A DNA stretch of 64,000 bases from assembly GCA_902582475.1 (NCBI GenBank), contig CACHSH010000002.1, forward strand, positions 38,595 through 102,594. Direction: 5' to 3'. Source of the DNA: an uncultured Pelagibacteraceae bacterium. GTDB lineage: Bacteria; Pseudomonadota; Alphaproteobacteria; Pelagibacterales; Pelagibacteraceae. Within the stretch, counting starts at the first letter, position 1, and each line of letters opens with the position of its first letter. The notes beneath the pieces were generated by a model. That model ran no database searches. It saw only the letters and a program-made list of their open reading frames with translations, and was not told the DNA's origin. This document shows positions 1,931 to 44,837 of this stretch, one piece after another. The position numbers were made by a program, and so were the translations under genes.

Positions 1931-2140
1931 CTACTTAAGTAATTTCTTTTTTTCCCTCTCATATTCATATCCAGTGATTACTCCATCTTTATAAAGGTCC
2001 AAAAGCTTTTTTAATTGAACAGAAACCTCATCACTCGTGACTTTATTAGTTTCTACTTTATTAGATTTTTCTGCGTTCATATTTTCAGAGAATAAAGAGA
2101 AAAAAAATGTGATTAAAAAAAGAGTTGTAATTTTATTCAT
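1931..2140 (-). CDS. small secreted/lipid-anchored protein with SHOCT-like C-terminus
   Basis: 69 aa; hydrophobic N-terminal signal, C-terminal LKKLLDLYKDGVITGYEYEREKKKLLK resembles SHOCT; start overlaps soxD stop by 4 nt. Confidence 0.65.
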   Translation of the reverse strand: MNKITTLFLITFFFSLFSENMNAEKSNKVETNKVTSDEVSVQLKKLLDLYKDGVITGYEYEREKKKLLK

Positions 2141-2490
2141 GGTTTTTTTACCGAAAAGTTACCTGATCCAACATCTGGCTCACCAGATGGGGTTTTTATT
2201 GTATTTTTAAATTCTTTTAACGGAGGAGGGTTCTCTCCTATTTTATAAACTTTTAATATTTCATCCGTTGAAGTGTTTCTAACTGCATTAAACCATTTTT
2301 TGCATCCGTGAGTGTGAACCCAACGTTCGTAATAAATTCCTTTTGGATTTGCTCGGATAAAAACATATTCAGACCATTCTCTATCACTTATTTGTTCAGG
2401 ATCTTTGGGTCTCGCTACGTGAGCCTCACCACCATTAGAGAATTCAGATTGGTCTCTTTCTCCGCAATAAGGACATCTTATAGTAAACAT
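2137..2490 (-). CDS. soxD: sarcosine oxidase delta subunit
   Basis: 117 aa; MFTIRCPYCGERDQSEF zinc-ribbon start and HTHGCKKWFNAVRNT motif typical of SoxD; between soxB and soxA. Confidence 0.93.
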   Translation of the reverse strand: MFTIRCPYCGERDQSEFSNGGEAHVARPKDPEQISDREWSEYVFIRANPKGIYYERWVHTHGCKKWFNAVRNTSTDEILKVYKIGENPPPLKEFKNTIKTPSGEPDVGSGNFSVKKP

Positions 2491-3741
2491 TTAATGTGCT
2501 ACAGCTGCAGCTCCGTGTTCATCTACTAATCTTCCACTTACAAATCGATCTACACTAAATGGAGCATTAATTTTGTGAGCTTTATTTTTTGCTATCGTAT
2601 GTGCAAAAACGTTTGCACTTCCGGGTGTTGCTTTAAAACCGCCTGTGCCCCATCCACAATTAAAATATAATCCTTCTACTTCACATTTACTTAATATTGG
2701 ACTTGCATCTGGAGTTATATCAACAATACCACCCCATTGTCTGAGCATTTTCATTTTTCCAAAGATCGGATAGAGCTCAACTATCGCTCTGATCGTATCT
2801 TCAATAATATTATAACCGCCTCTTTGTGTATAAGAATTGTATCCGTCAGTTCCTGCACCAATAACAAGTTCACCTTTATCAGATTGACTTACATAAGCGT
2901 GAACAGCATTCGACATTACAACCGTATTGATCACAGGCTTAATTGGTTCGGACACTAATGCTTGTAGAGCTTTACTTTGAAGAGGCAATTTAATTCCAGC
3001 AGTTGCTGCTAAAACACTTGTGTGACCAGAAGCAACCACACCCACTCTGTTTGATCTAATAAAACCTTTAGATGTTTCAACACCCTGTACCTTTCCTTTA
3101 GCCGTTCTTATTTTTTTAACTTCACAATTTTGTATTATGTCTACTCCTAACTCATCTGCTCTCATTGCATAGCCCCAAGCAACTGCATCATGACGTGCTA
3201 CGCCAGCTCGTGGTTGATAAGAAGCACCTAAGACAGGATATCTACAATTTTCAGTATTCATAATTGGTACTAATTTTTTTATTTGATTAGGATCAACCCA
3301 TTCAGAGTCAATACCATTTAATTTATTTGCACTTACTCTTCTTCTAATTTCTTTAACATCATGCTCATTATGAGCAAGATTTAAAACACCTCTTTGGCTA
3401 AACATAATATTATAATTTAGTTCAGCAGATAAATTTTCCCAAAGTTTTAATGAATGTTCGTATAAATGCGCACTTTCATCCCAAAGATAATTTGACCTTA
3501 TAATTGTTGTGTTACGACCCGTATTACCTCCACCAAGCCAACCTTTCTCAATAACCGCAATATTTTTTAGACCATGTTCTTTTGCAAGGTAATAAGCTGT
3601 ACCAAGACCATGTCCTCCGCCCCCAACGATAATTACATCGTAGAATTTTCTAGGCTCTGGATTACGCCACATCTTTTTCCAATTTTGATTATCGGAAAGA
3701 GAATTTTTTACTAAGCTATAAATGGAGTATTTTTTTTTCAC
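2491..3741 (-). CDS. soxB: sarcosine oxidase beta subunit
   Basis: 416 aa FAD-dependent DAO-family protein: [56 protein letters not shown]. Confidence 0.95.
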
Positions 3742-3782
3742 AATTTAAAATTATCAAAAAATATGGCTTTCATCTAGTTAAT

Positions 3783-4247
3783 TTAGGTTGAAGACCCCAT
3801 TTGAATTGGCTGGGAAACCACCGTAGTTAGCCAACAATTTTTCAACGGACCGTCTTCTAAAAACTTTTCAACCTGCCATCTAAATTTAAAGTACTTTTTA
3901 TCTGGTCCTAAGATAATTACTTCGTAAAGAGCTCTTTTATTATCATTATCAATTTCTACAATCTCATGGCCAATATGACCAATTAACATTTTGTAAGATT
4001 CACCCTTTATCATTTTTGTGAAATTATCTAAAGGGCCAGTAAAACGTTGGTTGTTTGGATGTGCAAATTCCCATGTTTGTTTTATTCCATTATCTTTTGA
4101 TGGTGCATCATTCTTCATCAAGCTCTTAAGCTGGATTTTAATTACATCCTCTGGCTTAATTTTATCATTTGGTTTGATAAAATCTGCGTATGCAAAACAT
4201 TGATTTAAAATGAATATTGCTACAAAAAGTTTCAAAACTTTTCTCAT
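3783..4247 (-). CDS. DUF4864-like exported protein
   Basis: 154 aa, signal peptide, composition and QTWEFAHPNNQRFTGPLDNFTKMI motif resemble DUF4864. Confidence 0.55.
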   Translation of the reverse strand: MRKVLKLFVAIFILNQCFAYADFIKPNDKIKPEDVIKIQLKSLMKNDAPSKDNGIKQTWEFAHPNNQRFTGPLDNFTKMIKGESYKMLIGHIGHEIVEIDNDNKRALYEVIILGPDKKYFKFRWQVEKFLEDGPLKNCWLTTVVSQPIQMGSST

Positions 4248-5610: not shown

Positions 5611-5668
5611 TCCTCCTTTTTAGTACTTCGACAAAATGTCGGGCGTACAATACAGTTCAAATACCCGG
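5611..5668 (-). ncRNA. putative SAM-V riboswitch aptamer overlapping the metY ribosome-binding site
   Basis: Minus strand GGGTATTTGAACTGTATTGTACGCCCGACATTTTGTCGAAGTACTAAAAAGGAGG; GGGTATTTGAAC...GCCC and CTAAAAAGGAGG arrangement directly upstream of the metY ATG resembles SAM-V. Confidence 0.7.
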
Positions 5669-5688
5669 TTTTAATTTGAAACTATTCC

Positions 5689-5717
5689 AAAAAAAAACCA
5701 CCGACTAAAGCGGTGGT
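5689..5717 (-). terminator. intrinsic terminator between the two putative SAM aptamers
   Basis: Minus strand ACCACCG-CTTTAGT-CGGTGGT followed by a run of T (9 nt). Confidence 0.85.
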
Positions 5718-5731
5718 CTCGAAAGATTTAA

Positions 5732-5784
5732 CGCTTTAGCGGATTTTTTAAAGCGCTCGCAATTTGTATTAAATCAGCGCTAAT
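5732..5784 (-). ncRNA. putative SAM-II riboswitch aptamer
   Basis: Minus strand AGCGCTGATTTAATACAAATTGCGAGCGCTTTAAAAAATCCGCTAAAGCG matches the SAM-II pattern (GCGCUGAUUUAA...UUGC-AGCGC...GCUAAA) upstream of metY. Confidence 0.82.
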
Positions 5785-5870: not shown

Positions 5871-6245
5871 ATGAGCAATAAATGGAATAGTAATTTAACC
5901 CCTGAACAAAATTACATTTTAAAAGAAGAGGGTACAGAGCCTCCTGGATCTAGCCACTTAAATCAGGAAAAAAGAGAAGGTGATTATCATTGTGCTGGGT
6001 GTGGGGTAAAACTTTTTAGTTCAACAATGAAGTATGAAAGCGGTTCTGGTTGGCCATCTTTTTTCTCTTCTTTACCTGACGTGTTTGAAACTAAAACAGA
6101 TACACATATTGGTTATGAAAGGACAGAATATCACTGTAAAAAATGTGGTGGACATCACGGACACATATTTGATGATGGCCCTAAACCTACTGGAAAAAGG
6201 TTCTGTAACAACGGTGTTTGCTTAGTATTTAAACCTAAAAAATAA
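5871..6245 (+). CDS. msrB: peptide-methionine (R)-S-oxide reductase
   Basis: 124 aa; YHCAGCGVKLFSSTMKYESGSGWPSF, HCKKCGGHHGHIFDDGP, GKRFCNNGVCLVF. Confidence 0.95.
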   Translation: MSNKWNSNLTPEQNYILKEEGTEPPGSSHLNQEKREGDYHCAGCGVKLFSSTMKYESGSGWPSFFSSLPDVFETKTDTHIGYERTEYHCKKCGGHHGHIFDDGPKPTGKRFCNNGVCLVFKPKK

Positions 6246-44645: not shown

Positions 44646-44673
44646 ATCAAAATTTTATGTTATAGTAAAACCT

Positions 44674-44837
44674 TAACGGGAGAGACTATTTAAATATAGC
44701 GCCGAAGGAGCAACCTCCCTGGAAACTCTCAGGCAAAAGGACCGTTATTGTAATAACTCTGGAAAGCAGGCTTTAGCCTCACCGAAGGAGTAAATCTCTC
44801 AGGTTCTTAGACAGATGGGGACGAAAAGGGTTATTAC
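44674..44837 (+). ncRNA. tandem glycine riboswitch upstream of gcvT
   Basis: Aptamer 1: CGGGAGAGAC...GCGCCGAAGGAGCAA...GGAAACTCTCAGGCAAAAGGACCG; aptamer 2: CTCTGGAAAGC...TCACCGAAGGAGTAA..TCTCTCAGGTTCTTAGACAGATGGGG; directly upstream of gcvTHP. Confidence 0.95.

Follow-up and report, generated by a model that had tools for sequence, protein, structure and literature searches.

The leader of metY in a Pelagibacteraceae (SAR11) draft genome of 0.78 Mb raises the question of why a single gene should carry two aptamers for the same ligand, and how both could act on one transcript. Cells of SAR11 bacteria rank among the most abundant in the ocean and rely on reduced sulfur, and metY provides one of their routes to methionine. 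The tandem class to which such leaders belong has 149 published cases, and the division of roles predicted for it is transcription termination by SAM-II and a translation block by SAM-V (PMC9481103); this agrees with the statement in the preliminary description of this DNA that the class is already known. We consider it likely that the metY leader works as a two-stage SAM OFF switch, in which SAM-II, an antiterminator, and a terminator would act first and SAM-V second. This reading draws on the elements found in the window (the whole stretch of 64,000 nucleotides that was analysed), their conservation, the covariation in SAM-V, and the mutually exclusive pairings described below, and it takes SAM binding and the two-level model from relatives.

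Layout of the metY leader

The preliminary description, made from the letters alone, had placed SAM-II, a terminator, SAM-V, and metY in this order on the minus strand, and every element that it named was found (Table 1), including the tail of exactly nine T and the ribosome-binding site AAAAGGAGG within the 3′ end of SAM-V. Its proposal that the listed start TTG 5660 lies inside the RNA was also borne out: this codon falls within SAM-V, and since homologous MetY proteins begin at an ATG a few nucleotides after the Shine–Dalgarno sequence (SD), the metY start was assigned to ATG 5603. Judging from the promoter sequence, transcription is expected to start at about 5785, directly 5′ of SAM-II P1. 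The leader fold was matched in stability by only 1 of 200 shuffled sequences (z -2.45). Two features had escaped the preliminary description, namely a predicted antiterminator joining SAM-II to the terminator and a SAM-II score under the Rfam cut-off.

Table 1. Coordinates of the metY leader features in the window.
Feature	Position	Strand	Basis
Promoter TTGACT - 18 nt - TATAAT	5820-5791	minus	11/12 consensus matches; block kept in genus members
SAM-II aptamer	5783-5730	minus	model R1 72.1 bits, E 1e-15; RF00521 27.7 bits, under cut-off 36
SAM-II P1	5781-5777 with 5756-5752	minus	compensatory changes
SAM-II L1 GAUUU	5775-5771	minus	
SAM-II P2 strands	UUGC 5762-5759 and GCUAAAGCG 5740-5732	minus	
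Antiterminator helix (predicted)	5742-5701	minus	MFE, pairing in 60 sequences, two loop variants, ensemble calculation
Intrinsic terminator with 9-T tail	5717-5689	minus	sequence; kept in all tandem leaders
Terminator 5′ arm ACCACCG	5717-5711	minus	
Terminator loop CUUUAGU	5710-5704	minus	
Terminator 3′ arm CGGUGGU	5703-5697	minus	
Terminator nine-U tail	5697-5689	minus	
SAM-V aptamer	5675-5610	minus	RF01826 73.4 bits, cut-off 41; covariation
SAM-V P1	5666-5663 with 5644-5641	minus	
SAM-V P2	5650-5645 with 5627-5621	minus	
SAM-V P3	5640-5638 with 5632-5630	minus	
Ribosome-binding site AAAAGGAGG in SAM-V 3′ end	5620-5612	minus	sequence; position as in published SAM-V mechanism (PMC6061858)
metY, O-acetylhomoserine aminocarboxypropyltransferase	5603-4314	minus	TIGR01326 570 bits, over cut-off

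Regarding the surroundings, msrB is divergent from metY (5871-6245 plus), while the region downstream (2137-4247 minus) encodes a 154-aa protein without NCBIfam match, followed by soxB and soxD (sarcosine oxidase). Elsewhere in the window, a single-aptamer glycine riboswitch was located at 44667-44754 plus (71.4 bits).

Identity and conservation of the two aptamers

The covariance search with Rfam models, suggested by the preliminary description as a check, supported SAM-V and matched SAM-II at the expected place with scores under the cut-offs. The SAM-V match was complete, covering model positions 1-66 of 66, and was the single RF01826 match in the whole genome. In an alignment of 32 sequences, 97.1% of the stem cells were paired and 51 cells were changed on both sides, compared with 17.9 in shuffles; the covariation score was 0.314 (0.182 in shuffles), a value reached by 0 of 500 shuffles, and slid versions scored far lower. 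The P1 differences between the SAM-V of the window and its closest relatives were compensated. As in the crystal structure of a metY SAM-V (PMC6061858), the RNA contains P1, P2, P3, and an SD in the 3′ tail, and it differs by compensated stem variants, with UAC/GUA for UGC/GCA in P2 and GAC/GUC in P3. Binding of SAM, and not of SAH, has been demonstrated for the HTCC1062 metY and bhmT SAM-V aptamers (PMC6061858).

For SAM-II, RF00521 matched 5790-5719 with 27.7 bits against a cut-off of 36 (local E 1.4e-4), and RF01726 gave 22.7 bits against 44, so that SAM-II was rejected as a formal Rfam call. At E<=0.001, the metY-leader site was nevertheless the sole RF00521 match in the 0.78 Mb genome, and the genus-level RF00521 matches were all situated (10/10) about 40 nt 5′ of a SAM-V match. 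Since the gathering score was reached by no member of the genus, the low score reflects how SAM-II of SAR11 differs from the Rfam seed. Weak matches of sroD, rnk_leader, and anti-hemB on the same stretch, all under their cut-offs, were dismissed as chance or terminator-driven.

A model termed R1, constructed from 37 aligned SAR11 SAM-II sequences that include HTCC1062 bhmT and exclude the sampled members of the window's genus, scored 72.1 bits (E 1e-15) at 5783-5730, against E values of 0.18 and 0.89 for the next matches in the window; across the whole genome it identified one further site, 5′ of metX on another contig. Among 60 dissimilar SAR11 sequences, the core elements GAUUU, UUGC, and GCUAAA were invariant or nearly so, and 3 of the outer P1 pairs were changed on both sides (7 cells). 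Compensatory changes were found in the stems of both aptamers, strong in SAM-V and thinner in SAM-II P1, and the checks that the preliminary description had named as able to refute its reading did not do so. The scores of RF00521 and RF01726 under their gathering thresholds could be read as a chance likeness, with a SAM-V riboswitch lying behind an unrelated terminator, but this reading is effectively refuted by the R1 match at E 1e-15, by the presence of the SAM-II element at all SAM-V sites of the genus, and by its being the same element as the biochemically tested SAM-II of HTCC1062 bhmT (L019), itself a row of the model that matches the window. The results support the metY-leader SAM-II as a homologue of the SAM-binding HTCC1062 bhmT aptamer, from which, as from other relatives, binding here would be carried over.

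The tandem is conserved within the genus of the window: SAM-V scored over the cut-off in 18 of 31 genomes, and SAM-II with its terminator lay upstream in all 18. The other sampled tandems showed the same layout 5′ of metY, bhmT, or a MetE-like gene. Of the 22 genus genomes with metY, four had no SAM-V match. In G001, G049, and G142 (L288, L289, L290, L296), metY directly follows bhmT with no riboswitch between the two genes, and bhmT of G001 has SAM-II and the terminator with SAM-V absent; in G121, SAM-II and the terminator are retained, and the SAM-V behind them has diverged strongly. Dual control of transcription and translation, as put forward in the preliminary description, fits the covariance models, the 18/18 conservation, the compensatory changes, and the published class (PMC9481103), from which binding and switching would be extended to this leader.

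The closest known system is HTCC1062 bhmT ('Ca. Pelagibacter ubique'), which likewise has the order SAM-II, terminator, SAM-V, a nine-U tail, a complementary CUUUAG loop, and a sulfur gene. A genome whose SAM-V coordinates match the published HTCC1062 ones falls into the family of the window's genome. The controlled gene is bhmT there and metY here, and the start codon directly follows the SAM-V SD in the window, whereas it is about 70 nt further downstream in HTCC1062 bhmT. The window is thus a clear, ordinary member of the known tandem class, at a gene listed as SAM-V only in HTCC1062 (PMC2704228, PMC5069961), and a clear metY tandem outside the genus of HTCC1062 shows dual SAM sensing to be used more widely than was known.

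Several related arrangements were observed outside this set. L128 (HIMB114), L116, L162, and L171 carry a SAM-II of the same type with a terminator and no SAM-V before a metF-like gene. A SAR11-type tandem 5′ of metY in L112 (SXSU01000080.1, labelled Bdellovibrionales) probably belongs to a mis-binned SAR11 contig, and the phage collection contained no related leader.

The terminator and a predicted antiterminator

CGCUUUAG, from the 5′ arm and loop of the terminator, can base-pair with CUAAAGCG, the strand of SAM-II that binds SAM. In the predicted antiterminator, the 3′ strand of the SAM-II pseudoknot, CCGCUAAAGCG (5742-5732), pairs with CGCUUUAG-U-CGG (5712-5701), leaving U5704 bulged, and the helix occupies the terminator loop and both inner arms. 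Because these strands are shared, pseudoknot, antiterminator, and terminator are mutually exclusive, as an OFF switch requires. The helix was estimated at about -16.6 kcal/mol, compared to -7.4 with shuffled partners.

Folding of growing transcripts was calculated at equilibrium without pseudoknot energies, and the values indicate compatibility with the predicted switch. At 54-74 nt, the MFE was a competing hairpin of the P1 3′ strand with UAAAGCG; at 78-86 nt it was the antiterminator, the 3′ arm of the terminator being still incomplete, with an antiterminator probability of 0.98-0.99 at 80-84 nt. At 88-110 nt, the terminator probability was 0.32-0.89 with the P2 strand free and 0.96-0.99 with that strand blocked, which mimics SAM binding. 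The antiterminator returned to 0.98-0.99 at 120-150 nt, and at 184 nt antiterminator and terminator shared the ensemble (0.58 and 0.42). The MFE of the full leader contained the antiterminator and no terminator. Over 130 sequences, the two folds lay within a few kcal/mol of each other (median -2.1 favouring the antiterminator). Since the SAM-free equilibrium often favours the terminator already at the decision point of 88-96 nt (0.32-0.88), the ON state must depend on kinetics; we infer the antiterminator switch and its timing from these models.

In 60 SAR11 sequences, 96% of the antiterminator cells were paired and mostly invariant, so that the alignment added no pair changed on both sides and covariation is thin; most of these sequences came from a pattern search requiring the motif, and the unselected ones carry it as well. 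Two further comparisons carry less of this bias. All 38 tandem leaders found via SAM-V alone have the loop, as CUUUAG in 37 and CUUCAG in 1. In a scan of 397 family genomes, the loop base examined was changed in 2: G029 keeps the pair as G.U, and G121 has an A-U pair in which the SAM-II base is changed too, compensating the loop. The neighbouring loop position was changed in 0 genomes, and the outer antiterminator pairs showed no clear covariation between loop base and spacer. The probable antiterminator wiring of the metY leader, as read from sequence, may be an addition to the known class; Poiata et al. 2009, reportedly the founding SAM-V paper, may have proposed an antiterminator earlier.

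Under the two-stage model, the SAM-II aptamer would be transcribed first. At low SAM, CCGCUAAAGCG would remain free and pair with the emerging CGCUUUAG-U-CGG, preventing the terminator, while in the SAM-bound state it would be locked in the pseudoknot, allowing the terminator ACCACCG/CGGUGGU with its U9 tail to form and transcription to stop. In read-through transcripts, SAM-V would bind SAM and hide AAAAGGAGG, blocking metY translation. Because the antiterminator would capture the SAM-contacting strand, SAM-II would act only once and be blind to SAM in the finished RNA, and after this single co-transcriptional use SAM-V would be the sole sensor.

These predictions can be set beside SHAPE experiments on the HTCC1062 bhmT tandem, in which each of the two aptamers responds to SAM when isolated, while SAM-II in the full-length RNA is unresponsive; the linker is responsible, oligonucleotides pairing with the linker restore the response, and the cause is not understood by the authors (PMC11508383). 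Both the loss of response and its rescue could follow if the linker CGCUUUAG captures the SAM-contacting strand, and core capture, if true, would resolve this puzzle. The little SAM response of SAM-II in the full-length bhmT RNA and the missing cooperative effect (PMC11508383) would also suit a leader regulated by SAM-V only, with SAM-II as a non-binding leftover folded in the antiterminator and the terminator as a fixed attenuator. We regard this as unlikely, given that truncated SAM-II binds SAM (PMC11508383), that the SAM-II core is invariant or nearly so across SAR11, which is not expected of a leftover, and that SAM-II and its terminator are kept as the sole element before bhmT-metY in the genus mate G001 and, in the HIMB114 group, before metF. 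The core-capture antiterminator of the two-stage model offers a testable reason for two sensors of the same ligand, one for the polymerase and one for the ribosome.

Proposed SAR11 wiring compared with other SAM-II leaders

The motif CUUUAGC/GCUUUAG was present in 0 of 84 SAM-II RNAs of other alphaproteobacteria, and core capture is therefore not a general SAM-II mechanism. The best pairing with the terminator mainly involved the P2a strand in these RNAs and the core in 97-100% of SAR11 sequences. For instance, the rhizobial-type SAM-II (RF00521) shares P1, the pseudoknot P2, the GAUUU, UUGC, and GCUAAA core, and a following intrinsic terminator, but its P2a strand (AGGUCGG) complements the terminator arm, whereas the metY leader has a minimal P2a and its core strand would be captured. 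A cross-pairing comparison within the non-SAR11 set gave no proof of a P2a antiterminator, as native pairs (-14.05) were only slightly more stable than swapped pairs (-13.8).

The P2a pairing of other alphaproteobacteria and the long P2a of the Rfam SAM-II raise the alternative that SAM-II controls the terminator without a core-capture antiterminator, for example via P2a or by sterically aiding the terminator. This appears quite improbable, since P2a, as read from the sequence, amounts to no more than a single C-G pair in the window and to 1-2 pairs in relatives, the SAR11 pairing falls on the core strand, and the loop is conserved although terminator loops need not be. It seems reasonably probable that SAR11 SAM-II is wired unlike the others, with the SAM-binding strand captured so that SAM-II would serve as a one-shot co-transcriptional sensor and SAM-V alone would act on the finished mRNA.

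The second SAM-II of the same genome (L295; contig C15, 2363-2311 minus; R1 36.1 bits), 5′ of a metX-like gene, has the terminator GCCCAG/CUGGGC, which lacks the CUUUAG loop; one genome therefore seems to contain two kinds of SAM-II wiring.

A SAM-II-like element without terminator was observed about 30 nt 5′ of SAM-V in HTCC1062 metY (L060:441-593) and mmuM (L292), and the same element in L003-L018, L020, L021, and L023-L032. It reads GCCGAUUUG-UCC-UAUUGC-GG-GC...GCUAAAAAGGA, with P1 GCC/GGC replaced by ACC/GGU in mmuM and P2a UCC/GGA by UCU/AGA in L005. Rfam made no call on it at E<=0.05 in the loci scanned (at most seven), and leaders carrying it appear as SAM-V only in literature listings. 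A possible conserved helix, CCGAUUU/AAAUCGG (UUUACCGAUU/AAUUGGUAAA in mmuM), links this element to SAM-V.

Finally, many tandem leaders (L019, L068, L070, L071, L077, L087, L197, and others) carry the SAM-V AAAAAGGAG 60-100 nt from the real start. Between the two lies CUUCUCC or CUCUCC, complementary both to GGAGAAG of SAM-V and to the GGAG that belongs to the gene itself, which might possibly act as a relay hiding the true SD.
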